Below are positions 4,558 through 17,537 of a stretch of DNA of 64,000 bases, piece after piece. The notes beneath the pieces are model-generated. The model did no database searches. It saw nothing but the letters and a program-made list of their open reading frames with translations, and was not told the origin of the DNA. The DNA lies in the NCBI RefSeq assembly GCF_018336815.1, contig NZ_CP050497.1, forward strand, positions 2,418,001-2,482,000, read 5' to 3'. This DNA is from Treponema vincentii (GTDB taxonomy: Bacteria > Spirochaetota > Spirochaetia > Treponematales > Treponemataceae). Numbering within the stretch: position 1 is the stretch's first letter; the number at the start of each line of letters is the position of its first letter. The position numbers were made by a program, and so were the translations under genes.

Positions 4558-5559
4558 ATGGGTATAGGTGATATTGCTGATGATATCAGCGGAAACGGAA
4601 AAACAATTGTTATTACATCGTTGGTGATGCTCATCGTTTTTGTTGCGGTTTCGACGCTGGTCTTTTTTATTTCGTTAAAAAGTGCCGAACAGGTGATGGT
4701 GCCGAATGTTGTCGGTAAAGATTTACCCGAAGCGCTGCTCGATTTGCAGGCGCGTGAGCTCTATCCGCGCATTCAGCTCCGCTATTCTCAAAAAGCGGAC
4801 GAAAAAGGGCTTATCCTTGAACAGGATCCCAGCCCGGGAGCTATCGTCAAAGGAGGCAAGCGGATCGAGCTGGTGGTAAGCCAAGGGACTGTTATCGATA
4901 CGGTACAGAATTATATCGGAGAAAATATCGAAGATGTACAAAACCGGATACGGGAGTTGTTTACTTCCGGCAGCCGTCAATACATCCGGATTAAACAGCC
5001 GTATTTGACGAAATACAGCGCCGAACCTGCAGGCACCATCCTTGAGCAGGAACCCGCAGCGGGAACACCGATTTCAAATAATATGGAGCTGACCTTTGTG
5101 GTAAGCAAGGGAACGCAAACGGAAACAACCCAAGTTCCCGATATGACCGGCGCCGATCTTAAAAAAATATATCAGGTAATGCAAAGAGCTGCGGTAACCT
5201 TTGCCTTTACCGCAGGCAGCGCCACGGGAACGGATATTACCGTACAACAGCAAAGTGCCGCAGCACAGAGTGAAGTTCCGGTATTTTCTCCGGTAACACT
5301 GACCGTTTCCCTACCGGAATCGGCAAACGGTATGGTGTCCGGCATCCTTAAAACAACACTGGCAGAGTTTCCCTATCCCTTTACCGTTTCGCTCTATGCA
5401 GCGTATCCCAACGGGGATAAAGATCTCCTTACCTCATTCCGGCATCCGGGCGGCGCATGTTCAGTACCATACACCGTTCCGGAAGGAACAAAGCTGTCGC
5501 TGGAAGTACTCAACAAAGAGGTTTACACCGAAACGGTAGGCGCAAATACAGCGGAATAG
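4558..5559 (+). CDS. PASTA domain membrane protein
   Basis: The 333-residue product has a short cytoplasmic N-terminus, one membrane helix (about residues 18-43) and an extracytoplasmic part with roughly three PASTA repeats (about 46-112, 113-183 and 184-250). The repeats show the pattern VPNVVGKDLPEALLDL and ILEQDPSPGA. A C-terminal stretch of about 80 residues is not recognised. PASTA domains usually bind peptidoglycan fragments or beta-lactams, but there is no kinase or penicillin-binding domain here, so the role is open. An RBS (AAGGA) precedes the ATG. It probably belongs to the def-fmt transcription unit. Confidence 0.85.
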   Translation: MGIGDIADDISGNGKTIVITSLVMLIVFVAVSTLVFFISLKSAEQVMVPNVVGKDLPEALLDLQARELYPRIQLRYSQKADEKGLILEQDPSPGAIVKGGKRIELVVSQGTVIDTVQNYIGENIEDVQNRIRELFTSGSRQYIRIKQPYLTKYSAEPAGTILEQEPAAGTPISNNMELTFVVSKGTQTETTQVPDMTGADLKKIYQVMQRAAVTFAFTAGSATGTDITVQQQSAAAQSEVPVFSPVTLTVSLPESANGMVSGILKTTLAEFPYPFTVSLYAAYPNGDKDLLTSFRHPGGACSVPYTVPEGTKLSLEVLNKEVYTETVGANTAE

Positions 5560-5670: not shown

Positions 5671-7662
5671 ATGAAGCAGTTTAAACTCATGGCGGATTAT
5701 CAGCCTGCCGGAGACCAAGGGGATGCAATACGGCAGCTTGCGGACGGTATACTGGCAGGCGATCGGTTTCAAACGCTCAAAGGCGTCACCGGTTCGGGTA
5801 AAACCTTTACGATGGCGAATATCATTCAGGCGGTACAAAAGCCGACGCTGATTATCAGCCACAACAAAACGCTTGCGGCGCAGCTTTACCGCGAGTTCAA
5901 AGGCTTTTTCCCGGAAAATGCCGTTGAATACTTTGTTTCATACTACGATTACTACCAGCCGGAAGCCTACGTCCCGGCGCGGGACCTTTATATCGAAAAA
6001 GATGCTTCTATCAACGACGAAATAGACCGGCTCCGGCTTTCGGCAACATTCAGTTTGATGGAGCGGCGGGATGTTATCGTTGTGTCGACGGTATCCTGCA
6101 TCTACGGTTTGGGCTTGCCCGAATCGTGGCGCGATTTACGCATCACCATAGAAAAAGGACAGACCATTGATCCCGGAAAACTCAAAAAGCAGCTGATCAG
6201 TCTGCAATATGAGCGGAACGATGCGGTGTTGGAGCGCGGTCGGTTCCGTGTCAAGGGCGATGTGATGGAAGTATTCCCTGCGTATATGGAAGAAGCCTAC
6301 CGCATTGAGTTTGACTGGGAAGAGATTGTGCGTATCCGCCGCTTTAATCCGCTGACCGGAGATGTGAGCCAAGAATACGAAGAGCTTTCGATTTATCCTG
6401 CAAAGCACTTTGTTATGCCGGAGAATGCGATACCTAATGCTATCGAGCGGATTAAACAAGAGCTTGATACCCGTTTGGAAACACTCAAGACGCAGGGAAA
6501 GCTCTTGGAGGCGGAACGGCTGAAAACCCGTACCGAATACGACATCGAAATGCTCTCCGAGATGGGCTATTGTCCGGGGATAGAAAACTACTCTGCGCCG
6601 ATTGCAAACCGCAAGCCCGGGGAGCCGCCTGCAACGCTTTTGCATTACTTTCCCAAAGACTTTCTCCTTTTTATGGACGAAAGCCATGTAACCTTTCCGC
6701 AAATCGGCGCGATGTACGAAGGCGACCGCAGCCGTAAGCAGAACCTTGTGGACTTCGGCTTCCGGCTCCCCTGCGCGCTGGATAACCGCCCGCTCAAAAT
6801 GAAAGAGTTTGAACAGATGCTCAATCAGGCAATATTTGTTTCCGCAACGCCCGGCCCCAAAGAGCTGCAGTATTCCACCCGCGTTGTTGAGCAGCTCATC
6901 CGCCCGACCGGTTTGTTAGACCCGCTCATCGAAATTCACCCGATCGAGGGGCAGATGGAGCATATCTACGGTGAGGTAAAAAAACGTATTGCAAAGGACG
7001 AGCGGAGCCTTATCCTCACCCTCACCAAGAAGATGGCGGAAGACCTGACCGACTACCTCACCGGTTTGGGCTTAAAGGTAAAGTATATTCACAGCGAGGT
7101 GGAAACCATTGAGCGGGTGGAAATCCTTAAAGGTTTACGGGCGGGCGAGTTCGATGTGCTTATCGGGATTAATCTTTTGCGAGAAGGGATTGACTTGCCG
7201 GAGGTATCGTTTATCGGCATCCTCGACGCGGACAAGATCGGCTTTTTGCGCTCAACCACCAGCCTCGTACAGATTGTCGGGCGGGCGGCGCGTAATGCCA
7301 ACGGCAGCGTAGTGATGTATGCCGACCGCATAAGCGATGCGATGAAGGAAACCATAGAAGAAACAACCCGCCGCCGTTCAATCCAGCAAGCATATAACGA
7401 GGCGCATGGCATTACGCCCAAGACTATTAAAAAATCCATCGAGGATATTCTGGTACGCGAAGCGGAAATCAAAAAAGAAGCCGCCCGTACCGAAACGGAA
7501 CCGCTCGTCAACAGCTTTAATATTTTGAACCCCGCCGACCGCAAAAAGCTCATCAAAAAGCTCGAGGCGCAGATGGCTGAATACGCCGATATGCTCCTCT
7601 TTGAAGAAGCGGCGGTGGTACGTGATAAGATTGAAGAGATTAAACGCCTTGGTTCCTTTTGA
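5671..7662 (+). CDS. uvrB: Excinuclease ABC subunit B
   Basis: UvrB is the damage-verifying helicase-like subunit of nucleotide excision repair. The 663-residue product has the N-terminal DYQPAGDQ start, Walker A GVTGSGKT, the YYDYYQPEAYVP beta-hairpin region, the MDESHVTFPQ Walker B region, helicase motifs through QIVGRAARN, and a C-terminal UVR domain that ends EEIKRLGSF. No clear Shine-Dalgarno sequence precedes ATG 5671, but the start agrees with family length. Unusually, the last 63 bp have a second, diverged copy at 8856-8918 behind the neighbouring nuclease gene. Confidence 0.98.
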   Translation: MKQFKLMADYQPAGDQGDAIRQLADGILAGDRFQTLKGVTGSGKTFTMANIIQAVQKPTLIISHNKTLAAQLYREFKGFFPENAVEYFVSYYDYYQPEAYVPARDLYIEKDASINDEIDRLRLSATFSLMERRDVIVVSTVSCIYGLGLPESWRDLRITIEKGQTIDPGKLKKQLISLQYERNDAVLERGRFRVKGDVMEVFPAYMEEAYRIEFDWEEIVRIRRFNPLTGDVSQEYEELSIYPAKHFVMPENAIPNAIERIKQELDTRLETLKTQGKLLEAERLKTRTEYDIEMLSEMGYCPGIENYSAPIANRKPGEPPATLLHYFPKDFLLFMDESHVTFPQIGAMYEGDRSRKQNLVDFGFRLPCALDNRPLKMKEFEQMLNQAIFVSATPGPKELQYSTRVVEQLIRPTGLLDPLIEIHPIEGQMEHIYGEVKKRIAKDERSLILTLTKKMAEDLTDYLTGLGLKVKYIHSEVETIERVEILKGLRAGEFDVLIGINLLREGIDLPEVSFIGILDADKIGFLRSTTSLVQIVGRAARNANGSVVMYADRISDAMKETIEETTRRRSIQQAYNEAHGITPKTIKKSIEDILVREAEIKKEAARTETEPLVNSFNILNPADRKKLIKKLEAQMAEYADMLLFEEAAVVRDKIEEIKRLGSF

Positions 7663-7773
7663 AAATATACGGCACATCTGCGTTGTCGCTTAACAAAAAA
7701 CAGTCCTCGACGTACAAAAAGTACGCCTGCGGATGTTTTTTGTACGCTCCTAGCATCTGTGGCGTCTATTTTC
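7661..7773. repeat. Palindromic MITE-like element touching the uvrB stop
   Basis: This 113-bp segment has imperfect terminal inverted repeats. The left end GAAAATATACGGCACA matches the complement of the right end, GAAAATAGACGCCACA, at 14 of 16 positions, and the flanking TTTT/AAAA extends the pairing. An inner stem pairs GTACAAAAA with TTTTTGTAC. The left end overlaps the uvrB stop codon. No protein is encoded. Its left part also resembles the direct repeat at 7789-7848. Confidence 0.55.
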
Positions 7774-7788
7774 AAAAGCCTGGTTCAA

Positions 7789-7848
7789 AAATATACGACA
7801 TATCTACTGCGTCATACGGTAAAAAAGTGTCCTCAACGTATCAGAACG
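7789..7848. repeat. 60-bp direct repeat, copy R1 (left of Rpn gene)
   Basis: It begins AAATATACGACATATCTACT and matches 8918-8977 at 58 of 60 positions. The pair flanks the Rpn gene. Copy R1 runs directly into a perfect hairpin (7841-7874). Confidence 0.85.
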
Positions 7849-7874
7849 TCCTCGGATGGACGAGGACGTTCTGA
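7841..7874. repeat. Perfect 14-bp stem hairpin
   Basis: Arms TCAGAACGTCCTCG and CGAGGACGTTCTGA are exactly complementary around the loop GATGGA. It lies between repeat R1 and the promoter of the Rpn gene. There is no T-run, so a simple terminator is unlikely. Confidence 0.75.
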
Positions 7875-7903
7875 TTAGAGAGGTTATAAAATTGTGGTAA
7901 GTA

Positions 7904-7912
7904 TGGTATAAT
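7904..7912 (+). promoter_or_regulatory. Extended -10 promoter of the Rpn gene
   Basis: TGG followed by TATAAT (7907-7912) forms an extended -10 element about 21 bases upstream of the start codon at 7934. A -35 box is not obvious, which is normal for this class. GAGG at 7924-7927 serves as the RBS. Confidence 0.55.
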
Positions 7913-7933
7913 AACGTACAAGTGAGGTACGCT

Positions 7934-8860
7934 ATGCCAAAGCACAACCGCAGGTACAAAGACTCGGTGTTTGTTGACCTTTTCAGCGAAGACGAAAAGG
8001 CAAAAGAAAACTTCTTGTCGTTGTATAATGCCTTACATAATACTAATTTACAGCTTTCATGTCCGGTAGAAAACATACGGCTTGATAATGTCATGTACAT
8101 GAATATTATCAACGATATATCTTGCCTTGTAGACAATAAGATTGTTGTTCTTGCGGAGCATCAGTCTACTATCAATGAAAATATGCCGATACGCTTTTTA
8201 CAATATATCGCGCGGCTCTACGAAAAACTGCAAACTCCGACAGACAGATACTTAAGAAAGCTGTCAAAAATACCTACACCGGAATTTTACGTCTTTTACA
8301 ATGGGATGGAAGACTACCCTGAAACTACAATTTTAAAGCTTTCAGATGCATTTATGACAAAATCGGATGCCCTGCCGCTGGAACTTATCGTAAAGGTCTA
8401 TAATATAAATACGAGGAAGGGAGCACAAATATTAAGCTGTTGCAGAACTTTAGATGAATACAGTTTGTTTGTAGAAGAAGTACGCATACAAACACAACTC
8501 GACCCTGAAAACGGCTTTACGAATGCGGTAAAAATATGTATAGAAAAAGGTATCTTAAAGGAATACTTACAAAGAAAATCACGGGAGGTAATTAATATGC
8601 TAGTAGCAGAATACGACTATGATACGGACATTGCGGTACAGCGAGCAGAAGCGGGCAGAATAGCCTTTGCCGAGGGTATTGAGCAAGGTATTGAGCAAGG
8701 CATTGAACAGGGTATTGAACAGGGTATTAAACAAGGATTTTCCGATGGAGCGTACCAAACAAAGCTTGAAACGGCAAAACTTATGCGTATACATAATTAC
8801 TCGATTGGCGAAATTTGTACAATGACCGGTCTCAGCCAAGAAGAAGTAGAAAGTGTTTGA
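7934..8860 (+). CDS. Rpn family PD-(D/E)XK nuclease (putative transposase)
   Basis: The 308-residue product has the start MPKHNRRYKDSVFVDLF and the core ISCLVDNKIVVLAEHQST of the Rpn / PD-(D/E)XK nuclease 'transposase' family. Relatives in E. coli (RpnA) are DNA endonucleases that promote RecA-independent recombination. The tail carries five IEQG-type repeats encoded by 12-bp tandem repeats (8675-8734) and a closing helix-turn-helix-like segment (YSIGEICTMTGLSQEEV). ATG 7934 is preferred over GTG 7922 because GAGG lies at normal spacing. It is flanked by 60-bp direct repeats and a duplicated uvrB tail, suggesting that it arrived as a unit. Confidence 0.85.
   Translation: MPKHNRRYKDSVFVDLFSEDEKAKENFLSLYNALHNTNLQLSCPVENIRLDNVMYMNIINDISCLVDNKIVVLAEHQSTINENMPIRFLQYIARLYEKLQTPTDRYLRKLSKIPTPEFYVFYNGMEDYPETTILKLSDAFMTKSDALPLELIVKVYNINTRKGAQILSCCRTLDEYSLFVEEVRIQTQLDPENGFTNAVKICIEKGILKEYLQRKSREVINMLVAEYDYDTDIAVQRAEAGRIAFAEGIEQGIEQGIEQGIEQGIKQGFSDGAYQTKLETAKLMRIHNYSIGEICTMTGLSQEEVESV
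8675..8734 (+). repeat. 12-bp tandem repeat (5 units) in the Rpn gene
   Basis: Five consecutive units related to GGTATTGAGCAA encode the repeated G-I-E-Q motif. A unit gain or loss keeps the frame, so the C-terminal linker length can vary without inactivating the gene. Confidence 0.85.
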
Positions 8861-8918
8861 AGAGGCGGCGGTCATTCGCGACAAGATCGAAGAGATTAAA
8901 AGATTGGGCTCCTTTTGA
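8856..8918 (+). pseudogene. Second, diverged copy of the uvrB 3' end
   Basis: These 63 bases encode FEEAAVIRDKIEEIKRLGSF and a stop, nearly the last 20 residues of UvrB (FEEAAVVRDKIEEIKRLGSF). About a fifth of the bases differ, almost all at silent positions, so this is not a recent copy of the resident uvrB. It overlaps the Rpn stop codon by 3 bases, has no start, and runs straight into repeat R2. The pattern fits acquisition of the Rpn gene with a foreign uvrB tail, or an old duplication. Confidence 0.85.
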
Positions 8919-8977
8919 AATATACGACATATCTACTGCGTCATACGGTAAAAAAGTATCCTCAACGTATCGGAACG
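8918..8977. repeat. 60-bp direct repeat, copy R2 (right of Rpn gene)
   Basis: It matches 7789-7848 at 58 of 60 positions. It directly follows the uvrB tail remnant, in the same relation that the related sequence at 7661 has to the real uvrB stop. Confidence 0.85.
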
Positions 8978-9132
8978 GACAAGGATGTCCGTGGTTATAA
9001 GCAGTAGCGATGTTTTTGCGCAGCAAAAACTCGCGTTCAAAAATTGACAAGGAGGTCAATTTTTGAACTTGCCACGGATGGCACTGGTTCTCGGCTCAGC
9101 AGCGTGTTTGCAGAGGAAACACGCTGCTGAGC
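8975..9132. repeat. Array of four perfect hairpins
   Basis: There are four self-complementary units: 8975-8992 (ACGGAC/GTCCGT, loop AAGGAT), 9012-9030 (GTTTTTGC/GCAAAAAC, loop GCA), 9035-9068 (14-bp stem GTTCAAAAATTGAC, loop AAGGAG) and 9094-9132 (16-bp stem GCTCAGCAGCGTGTTT, loop GCAGAGG). The stems are unrelated to one another, but most loops are purine-rich. No coding potential is seen between 8919 and 9171. Confidence 0.75.
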
Positions 9133-15259: not shown

Positions 15260-15800
15260 TTATTTCATTCCAAAAGCAGGGTACTTTGTATCCTTTTCGG
15301 AGAATATATAGGGAACATCTAATTTCGGCCATTCGATACCGATTACAGGATCGTTCCACATAATGCCACCTTCATCTTCAGGGTGATAAAAGTCCGTACA
15401 TTTATACGCAAAGACAGCTTCATCACTCAATACTAAAAAGCCGTGTGCAAATCCCGGTGAAATAAAAAACTGATTTTGCCGTTCTGCAGAAAGGAGAACC
15501 CCGTACCATTTTCCGTAAGTAGCAGACCCCTTACGAATATCAACTGCAACATCGAAAACCTCTCCGCTTAACACCCGTACCAATTTTCCCTGCGGATAGT
15601 TCTTTTTGAAAATGTAACCCGCGCAGCACTCCTTTGGAAGACTTTGACTGATTATCCTGCACAAAATTATAAGCAATGCCAGCAGCAGCAAAATCGCGTT
15701 GCGACCAACTTTCAAAAAAATAACCGCGGTTATCAGAAAAAACTTTTGGCTGAATTTCGTAAAGTCCGGCAATAGGGCATTGTACAATGGTAAAAGGCAT
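15260..15800 (-). pseudogene. rfbC: dTDP-4-dehydrorhamnose 3,5-epimerase, frameshifted
   Basis: Codons from ATG 15800 encode a normal RfbC start ([20 protein letters not shown], then VLRGLHFQK). After an A5 run on the coding strand (15604-15608) the frame is lost, and the rest (NYPQGKLVRVLSGEVFDVAV to FGMK) continues in another frame. Removing one A restores a 179-residue protein of normal length. Either the gene is inactive, making the rhamnose pathway incomplete, or the extra base is a consensus error. A 42-bp segment over the gene start is duplicated at 17496-17537. Confidence 0.9.
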
Positions 15801-15812
15801 TAATAATTCTCC
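15771..15812. repeat. 42-bp direct repeat at rfbC start, copy A
   Basis: It is identical to 17496-17537 at 41 of 42 positions. It covers the first 10 codons of rfbC and the 12 bases before its start. The two copies bracket the AAA/PD-(D/E)XK gene. Confidence 0.92.
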
Positions 15813-15900: not shown

Positions 15901-17443
15901 TTATAGCTTCGCATACTTAAATTCGCTTATATTTCTCTTTTCACTATCAAAATTAATACCTATGACATAAATATCTTTACCTTGATTTTGATATTTTTCA
16001 TAGTATTTTTTCTCCATTATTTGTGCGATACCGTCTCCTGCACCCATCTTAAACTCAATAATATAGACATTATTTTCAATGGTGATGCTCATATCAATAC
16101 GCCCTTGATTGGTGCAATCTTCGGCAACAAAGGGCATGTTCAAACTATAGAGATAGGTGTAAATCACACTCGCATAAAAACCTTCATACTGCGCAATATA
16201 GTTACTTGAATAATTATGATACGGAATATTCGCAAAAACACGCACAAGATGGTTTTTTAAACGTTTCCATGTCCGCATTTTCCAGTGCAGAATATAGATT
16301 ATCCTGCATCTTTGTTTTTTCAATAACTGAGGGCGTTACCACATTGAGGAGTTCTTCATTTAAAGATTTTTGTACTTCAAAATTCGGAATCCTCAACTGA
16401 TAATAAAGTCCTTCCCTTACCGTAACAGCTGCCTTTATCGTAAGATACCCCGCTTGATACAATAATACCGGTAACTCAATATTATCGATGTCAAAAGATT
16501 GCAGGATTTCCTCTCCGACTTTTATATTCTGTAAATCAGGCGGAAAGAACTGCTTTTCTTGCATCAGGCGTATCAAAAAAGTCGGCGTTCCGGATTCGAA
16601 CCAATAATTCCTATATGAATGTCCTGCCGTACAGAAGTTAAGAATATCAAACGGATTATATACATTGTCCTTTAAGAAATTATACCCGTCATACCAGCGC
16701 TTCACCTTTTCCATATCAGCGCCTTCCAGATACGGCTGAAAGCTTGTTTCGAGATCGGTTTGCGTATACCCGCAGATATTTCCGTATTGAGGATACAACG
16801 ATATATCGACAAGGTTATTCAGTCCGGAAAAAATACTCACCTTTGCAAATTTACTCACCCCGGTCAGAAATGCAAATTTGACATATTCGTCGTTGTATTT
16901 GATATGTTCATACAAACCTTTCAGCGTATCGCGTGCATAATCCCTCATTGCAGGATCGGTAATATTGTCCAGTATCGGCTTATCGTATTCGTCTATTAAA
17001 ATAACAACGCGCTTGTTGTACTTTTTATAGGTTTCTTTGATAAGTAAATCAAACTGAGAAGAAAGTGATAATTCTTTATCAAGCATTACACCAAGGGATT
17101 CGGCATTCCAAGTTAGTGCTGATTGTACTTCACTTTGGAAATTAACTTCCGATGTAAAATTACCGCCCCAATGAATCCTGATAACCGGATAGGCTTCAAA
17201 ATTATATTTATCGTAAATATATAAGCCTTTAAAAAGCTCCTTCTTCCCTTCAAAAATTGCTTGCAAGGTGGTTAAAAAGAGACTTTTACCGAACCGCCGC
17301 GGGCGAGATAAAAAAACGTATTTATAATTATTGATTAACTGATATGCTTCTTGTGTTTTATCAATGTAGACGTAGTTACCGGTAATGATCTCAGAAAATG
17401 AGTGTATGCCTACCGGCAGTTTTTTTCCATGACAGTTATTCAT
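15901..17443 (-). pseudogene. AAA-ATPase-like / PD-(D/E)XK nuclease protein, frameshifted
   Basis: The N-terminal part (from ATG 17443) is an AAA-ATPase-like domain (PF09820 type): LPVGIHSFSEI, YVYIDKTQEAYQLI, Walker A-like SRPRRFGKSLFL, Walker B VVILIDEYDKPI. The C-terminal part has the PD-(D/E)XK core (QGRIDMSITIENNVYIIEFK). The frame breaks in an A6 run (16253-16258); five A would give one 513-residue protein. Its function is not established, though the family is expanded in gut and oral bacteria. It is inserted between rfbA and rfbC, flanked by 42-bp duplicates of the rfbC start. A deletion remnant of a second copy lies at 49480-49584. Confidence 0.85.
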
Positions 17444-17480: not shown

Positions 17481-17525
17481 TTAAAAGAACTCTTCAATAG
17501 GACATTGTACAATGGTAAAAGGCAT
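17481..17525 (-). pseudogene. Truncated duplicate of the rfbC 5' end
   Basis: The ATG at 17525 overlaps the rfbA stop (TAATG) and encodes [10 protein letters not shown], identical to the start of rfbC, then EEFF and a stop. This is probably the original rfbA-rfbC junction, with the real rfbC now 1.7 kb downstream behind the insertion. Confidence 0.85.
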
Positions 17526-17537
17526 TAATAATTCTCC
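17496..17537. repeat. 42-bp direct repeat at rfbA/rfbC junction, copy B
   Basis: Partner of 15771-15812 (41/42 identical). It includes the last bases of rfbA, so the junction as a whole was duplicated. Confidence 0.92.

Follow-up and report, generated by a model that had tools for sequence, protein, structure and literature searches.

A second, diverged uvrB 3′ end behind an Rpn nuclease gene in Treponema vincentii: a probable scar of exchange between treponeme lineages

Results

Gene organization at the 3′ end of uvrB

The window analyzed here, a 64,000-nucleotide stretch of the Treponema vincentii genome (G000:C1:2418001-2482000; genome G000, 2.71 Mb in one contig), contains an intact uvrB gene encoding 663 aa (5671–7662, plus strand; TIGR00631, 1039.8 bits), followed 271 bp later by a gene of the Rpn family, hereafter rpn (7934–8860, plus strand), and then by a sequence that repeats, in diverged form, the 63 bp at the uvrB end (8856–8918, plus strand), hereafter the remnant. 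The intact tail (7600–7662, plus strand; haplotype A) and the remnant (haplotype B) lie 1.2 kb apart and are the same at 51 of 63 bases (81%); nine codons differ, eight of them silently, with a single change from V to I. Two 60-bp sequences, R1 (7789–7848) and R2 (8918–8977), both on the plus strand, stand behind the respective copies and are identical at 58 positions. A sequence-only reading of this DNA had already described the recurrence of the uvrB end after the Rpn gene, with one conservative amino acid change and many silent differences, as well as the likeness of R1 and R2 and the intactness of the resident uvrB, and all of these descriptions were borne out by the repeat analysis and the complete reading frame. 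Self-BLAST excludes chance for both pairs (E = 3e-13 for the uvrB tail and 2e-21 for R1/R2); at a threshold of E ≤ 1e-5 and a distance of up to 8 kb, the window has three direct-repeat pairs on the plus strand, and these are two of them. The rpn stop codon TGA (8858–8860) is located inside the remnant (TTTGAAGAGG), so that rpn and the remnant overlap by 5 bp, and a scan for open reading frames (ORFs) of more than 110 aa found rpn as the only one lying wholly between the tail copies.

The gene between the two copies is a predicted nuclease of the Rpn family (RpnL, 308 aa from its ATG), as judged from profile searches with the region 7937–8860, the start codon being left out. It narrowly passes the cut-offs of both TIGR01784 (52.5 bits; cut-off 52.1) and Pfam Transposase_31 (PF04754; 24.5 against 21), and scored 46.6 bits with TIGR01784 in the genome-wide profile search, or 52.3 together with in-frame neighbors; its profile matches are solely Rpn-type and coiled FliH-like, and relatives reach 86% identity along almost the entire length. 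A candidate internal, in-frame RpnS antitoxin ORF of 87 aa (8597–8860, plus strand) can be read within it, with the putative ribosome-binding site GGGAGGT 7 nt upstream of the ATG at 8597 and 12-bp (4-aa) repeats of family D1 at 8662–8733, a layout resembling the internal start and repeats given for RpnL/RpnS in the accessible part of a 2023 study (PMC10327210). Several full-length Rpn genes among loci L040–L094 adjoin C-terminal Rpn pieces on their 5′ or 3′ side, some of which have their own start and ribosome-binding site and thus resemble a stand-alone RpnS. The possibility that rpn is an insertion sequence or transposon with defined ends was rejected, most of 39 Rpn loci having no common flank when inspected by eye. 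A promoter-like stretch is all that most of them have in common in their flanks; longer common flanks occur in the pairs L042/L051, L044/L053, L048/L056 and L054/L067, some of which represent one locus seen in two genomes.

Two natural uvrB 3′ ends in related treponemes

Four close relatives (G001, G004, G005 and G006), whose uvrB genes are 88.4–90.9% identical to that of the window at the DNA level, were compared at this gene. On the left side, positions 7600–7843 match G006 contiguously through the uvrB end, a dispersed element, the spacer and the start of R1 (88% over 245 bp). On the right side, the remnant together with the next 205 bp (8919–9123, hereafter the B-type spacer) matches G004:626683-626949 contiguously as well (88% over 269 bp), and G004 has no rpn there; the match of remnant and spacer to G005 is 86% over 116 bp. 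Ends of the A type are thus found in the intact uvrB of G000, in G006 and, interrupted, in G001, and ends of the B type in the remnant of G000, in G004 and in G005. The word following the A-side element occurs once in 424 kb of G000, behind uvrB, and also behind uvrB in G006 and G001, the scan of the relatives having covered their four uvrB loci. Since each copy is contiguous with a natural uvrB spacer, both are genuine uvrB 3′ ends, and two such ends with different closest relatives meet at this locus with rpn between them.

The remnant is the same as G004 at 55 of 63 bases, as the resident tail at 51, and as G006, G001 and G005 at 48–50. As the sequence-only reading had expected, it is therefore not closest to the resident uvrB; at uvrB, none of the four relatives showed a duplicated tail unaccompanied by rpn. 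The proposal that the remnant derives from the uvrB of another lineage agrees with these comparisons; its second half, that this end was carried in by rpn, is not supported, because a natural uvrB spacer stands behind each end, so that the remnant may equally be the old end left in place. Among the matches listed in one scan of a contig database with uvrB, none was closer than 74%, and the exact 39-base pattern of the remnant gave no match in viral contigs.

The difference between the two ends is almost wholly silent. Were the 12 base differences random changes, at most one amino acid change would be expected with P = 5e-6 if all 12 had arisen on the remnant, 0.007 if six had, and 0.07 if four had; furthermore, five silent differences within three neighboring codons are common to the remnant and G004 alone among the four relatives. 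This codon pattern argues against a decaying local copy. Between G004 and G005, whose uvrB genes are 95.3% identical, 14 of the 93 differences fall in the last 63 bp (P = 1.4e-6), a clustering not significant in the five other pairs tested. The G004 gene, which has no rpn behind it, thus looks as it might after an exchange of the tail.

R1 and R2 say less about the event than their near identity suggests. R1 is the left part of the second of two dispersed repeat copies behind uvrB, interrupted in mid-repeat, and R2 is a dispersed copy 3′ of the remnant. In G000, at least eight further places besides R2 match the R1 part (at least 42 bp, 82–96%), and at least 51 matches, itself included, were found for the whole 259-bp spacer region between uvrB and rpn, 40 of 92 candidates having been scored in each case. 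The two are therefore parts of a related dispersed repeat, not a private pair, and their similarity says little about a shared arrival. A joint import of the two as a pair was accordingly rejected, as R1 sits where G006 carries its second repeat copy after its own uvrB.

Similar scars at other genes

The boundary between prmC and relA (gene names of the prfA–prmC–relA series taken from G004) appears as a hot spot for cargo in five treponeme genomes (L309, G000:C1:1531500-1543000, and L310–L313). This place is empty in G004 and holds a spacer in G001; in G006 it is occupied by an Rpn-type gene (PDDEXK_2; TIGR01784, 148.3 bits) with no prmC remnant at E ≤ 1e-3, and in G005 by a TPM-domain gene followed by a remnant of the prmC tail and its spacer. 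The order in G000 is intact prmC, a leucine-rich-repeat gene, a shortened prmC copy, a broken Rpn gene and a prmC tail running into relA, the identities to G004 being 90% for the intact tail, 97.7% for the shortened copy and 95.5% for the relA-side tail. At another locus of G000, a gene that we take to be lipoprotein-like, for which a family search found none, is followed by blocks X and Y, an Rpn gene, block Z, a 148-bp copy of its tail and two short ORFs; G005 has the order gene, tail, short ORFs, X, Y and Z, and G006 is empty. Identity to G005 amounts to 98.4% on the remnant side and 91% on the gene side; X contains a BrnA antitoxin gene, and one of the short ORFs is weakly VapB/DUF2281-like, below both cut-offs.

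Within the window itself, a gene of the AAA-ATPase/PD-(D/E)XK type (15901–17443, minus strand; PF09820, PF08011), its frame broken near 16214–16323, lies between rfbA and rfbC, which are contiguous in G003. It is flanked by a duplicated junction of the rfbA stop and the rfbC start, with copies at 17495–17537 (left) and 15770–15812 (right), both on the minus strand and the same at 42 of 43 positions. The adjacent rfbC reads in two frames (15540–15800 and 15260–15787), both pieces of which match RmlC.

Three further duplications were noted, the first two in control regions examined in G000 only. A 45-bp repeat over the 3′ end of a tRNA-Thr gene flanks a BrnA antitoxin gene; here (L211:13171-14240) the copy of the tRNA-Thr(CGT) end lies about 950 bp downstream with the BrnA-type gene between, and the ORF list contains no long ORF between the two ends. 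In L218:4921-5943, an 82-bp direct repeat (94%) encloses a Gp49-type gene together with a short ORF to which no family was assigned. In G004, a 71-bp low-copy repeat (90%) stands across an Rpn locus (L258:2243-2313 and 4708-4778) and overlies no recognized gene. From a wider self-comparison of 424 kb, 16 low-copy pairs emerged, the majority of which lie within repetitive or paralogous genes.

Flanking repeats at Rpn loci and at control genes

Low-copy direct repeats flank 19 of 54 Rpn loci, a set of full-length or nearly full-length genes from five genomes, drawn from 110 family matches in seven genomes after exclusion of fragments and two G003 matches, in which at least three members (L235, L236 and L249) are nevertheless partial or broken. 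In G000 alone, 5 of 12 Rpn loci are flanked, plus two Rpn genes from the control scan. Control ORFs (at least 200 aa, at most 2.5 kb, and at least 2 kb from the region ends) were taken from 20 hand-picked regions of 18 kb and from the window, with a copy limit of 3, own copies being in the background, against 1 for the Rpn loci. Three of 185 were flanked, namely the two nuclease genes of the window and the Rpn gene in L205, and none of the other 182, a group to which no nuclease screen was applied. Of 35 rows for AAA-PDDEXK genes elsewhere (29 places, with fragments counted), 2 had low-copy repeats, both of at most 31 bp.

With the window gene and the L205 gene added, the 56 Rpn loci sort into 34 without a flanking direct repeat, six with Rpn pieces, three with A+T-rich stretches, one with a dispersed repeat and 12 classed as other. 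By our own judgement, these last comprise clear gene-edge remnants at three (the window, L230 and L236) and a possible one at L252, paralogous neighbors at L231, L266 and L267, an Rpn array at L232, a rather A+T-rich repeat at L205, repeats of only 28 bp at L246 and L253, and the unexplained L258. Rpn genes are thus enriched among repeat-flanked loci, and the Rpn protein may contribute to this, although a recent arrival of these genes would give the same enrichment. The occurrence of scars with other cargo and of Rpn genes without scars means that no specific Rpn mechanism is needed.

Discussion

The results described above suggest that one-sided homologous recombination between lineages of treponemes, known as homology-facilitated illegitimate recombination (HFIR), left the uvrB–rpn locus as its scar, a reading to which we assign a probability of roughly 0.6. 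In the proposed exchange, a piece of DNA carrying uvrB, the repeat element, R1 and rpn would have paired with the chromosomal uvrB of a recipient whose own gene had a B-type tail and spacer similar to those of G004. On one side, homologous exchange would have taken place within uvrB or upstream of it; on the other, an illegitimate joint at TTTGA would have linked the end of rpn to a point 21 codons, counting the stop, short of the old uvrB end. The product would be an intact uvrB with an A-type end, then rpn, and then the final 63 bp of the former uvrB together with the spacer that belonged to it, as found here. The direction of transfer, the route of DNA entry, the place of the homologous crossover and the arrival of rpn in the same step are what we infer from this arrangement. 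The anchor required for HFIR is provided by uvrB, which all four close relatives possess at 88–91% identity, and the alleles can be told apart across the joint by their A- and B-type ends and different spacers. TTTGA (5 bp), common to the end of rpn and the uvrB codons, is a candidate for the short match at the joint. In a single exchange anchored in uvrB and joined at TTTGA, the B end is the end left in place, as it likewise would be by analogy with tRNA-gene integrases.

Several observations weigh against this proposal. A sliding comparison revealed no mosaic breakpoint inside the resident uvrB, and the junction is present in none of the four close relatives. In all four, uvrB lies elsewhere, away from both the putative eno–fmt block on its left in the window and the putative exopolysaccharide block on its right, as named from their translations; as the G004-like match moreover ends at 9123, the B side need not be the one that was originally resident. 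The 5-bp overlap by itself is weak evidence, a literature search did not establish whether these treponemes take up DNA, and at prmC in G005 both tails are alike in their identity to G004 (92.6% and 93.1%). Finally, plain HFIR does not predict the excess of repeats around Rpn genes, unless these are recent arrivals.

Among the other explanations to be weighed, a Campbell-type single crossover or unequal tandem duplication, in which the uvrB tail would have recombined with a circular or tandem unit, from another lineage, made up of uvrB tail, spacer and rpn, is unlikely. It predicts direct repeats of tail and spacer on both sides and hence the observed order both here and at prmC of G005; the block order at the lipoprotein-like locus is also compatible with a circle or duplication and a subsequent loss. 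However, the circle or duplication it requires was seen in no genome examined, and the truncated R1 and incomplete A spacer mean that a further deletion would be needed. Slightly more doubtful is a stimulation by Rpn itself, whose cleavage would help its own gene to be captured at gene ends, independently of RecA and by template switching, so that Rpn genes accumulate with duplicated edges. The low-copy repeats that flank 19 of 54 Rpn loci but 0 of 182 other control ORFs, with just 2 of 35 AAA-PDDEXK rows flanked, speak for it, as do the reports, in the accessible part of the 2017 family description, that overexpressed Escherichia coli Rpn proteins raise RecA-independent recombination and that rpnC seemingly entered panC–panD twice (PMC5350276). 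The same text states, on the other side, that deletion of four E. coli rpn genes left basal recombination unchanged, and the accessible part of the later Rpn survey describes variable ends without target duplications (PMC10327210). Moreover, a clear edge of a neighboring gene accompanies only 3 of 56 Rpn loci, the remaining repeats being mostly Rpn pieces, paralogous neighbors or A+T-rich stretches; remnant lengths vary with no fixed site; similar scars enclose TPM-domain, AAA-PDDEXK and BrnA/Gp49-type cargos; and the background of the copy filter was G000 only, so that dispersed repeats of the four relatives may pass it.

The sequence-only reading had envisaged an insertion restoring the gene end as a property of the Rpn gene. 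This is not supported, in view of the B-type end, which is ordinary in G004 without rpn, and of prmC, where G005 has a remnant with a TPM-domain cargo and G006 an Rpn gene with no remnant; it is most likely that the locus is a scar of lineage exchange, and a nuclease with gene-end targeting is not the likely cause. The wider proposition that oral treponemes gain small nuclease and toxin–antitoxin genes by a recurrent, Rpn-stimulated, gene-end-preserving insertion at housekeeping 3′ ends, each leaving a diverged host-gene tail as its scar, seems to us similarly improbable. Integrative elements of tRNA genes leave an intact gene end, then cargo, then the displaced gene end, the same layout as here. 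A site-specific insertion of this kind into the uvrB 3′ end, with a tail copy on the rpn unit for attachment, could invoke the tRNA-Thr duplicate around the BrnA antitoxin gene, but was rejected as very improbable: no ORF of more than 110 aa, hence no integrase-sized gene, lies between the copies except rpn; the repeats of G000 measure 63, 148 and 225 bp and that of G005 about 100 bp, with no fixed core; 81% identity is low for an attachment core; protein genes are the targets; and the cargo differs by site. A local duplication of the uvrB end with later divergence, suggested by the two copies 1.2 kb apart, was rejected as hardly credible, given the near-silent pattern (P = 5e-6 to 0.07 by the number of changes on the remnant), the five silent differences common to G004 alone and the two different natural spacers.

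The lineage exchange proposed here is worth comparing with known systems, of which it is a variant, leaving a gene-end scar beside a small nuclease gene. HFIR, described for competent bacteria and E. coli conjugation in the accessible part of PMC3240628, likewise combines one homologous with one illegitimate end and places new DNA beside an anchor gene; it is known mostly from transformation and conjugation experiments, whereas here it is read from genomes, at the 3′ end of a housekeeping gene. It has also been proposed, in the accessible text of PMC5361080, for the serial displacement of effector 3′ ends in effector–immunity arrays of the Vibrio type VI secretion system and for Rhs loci, where a module enters by a conserved anchor, the old 3′ end is pushed downstream, and repeated rounds give arrays, as at prmC. 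The displaced gene is there a polymorphic effector; here, the anchor is uvrB, prmC or the lipoprotein-like gene and the cargo an Rpn or another small gene. The Rpn defense genes (RpnL/RpnS) as described in the accessible part of the 2023 study share with rpn the PF04754/TIGR01784 family, the internal start with ribosome-binding site, the 4-aa repeats and the variable ends; that text reports no target duplications and no autonomous transposition, whereas a few Rpn loci here are flanked by diverged ends of neighboring genes (PMC10327210). A search of mainly open-access literature gave no report of Rpn genes flanked by host-gene ends. The duplicate can be read as a record of small defense genes entering a genome without a transposase, in which each exchange is marked by the gene ends it leaves behind, and these give a hint of the lineages involved. 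With scars present at several genes and with different cargos, a pan-genome count could test the self-spread of Rpn genes, left open in the accessible part of the 2017 description (PMC5350276).

Repeat element at the uvrB stop codon

The first 119 bp 3′ of uvrB are a dispersed inverted-repeat element, resembling a miniature inverted-repeat transposable element (7656–7778), with copies throughout the genome and arms of 26 nt (7656–7681 and 7753–7778) that are 85% complementary. Further downstream, a perfect 14-bp hairpin can be read at the end of R1 (7840–7875), ahead of the rpn leader; a hairpin class with conserved loop and variable stem is unsupported, a GGAT or ATCC loop occurring in 3 of 58 perfect hairpins in 424 kb. 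The last codons and stop of uvrB, CTTTTGA (7656–7662), form the end of the element, which therefore seems to supply the uvrB stop. The uvrB of G003 has a different end and no such element, and CTTTTGA also ends uvrB in L034–L036, with L037 one base off.

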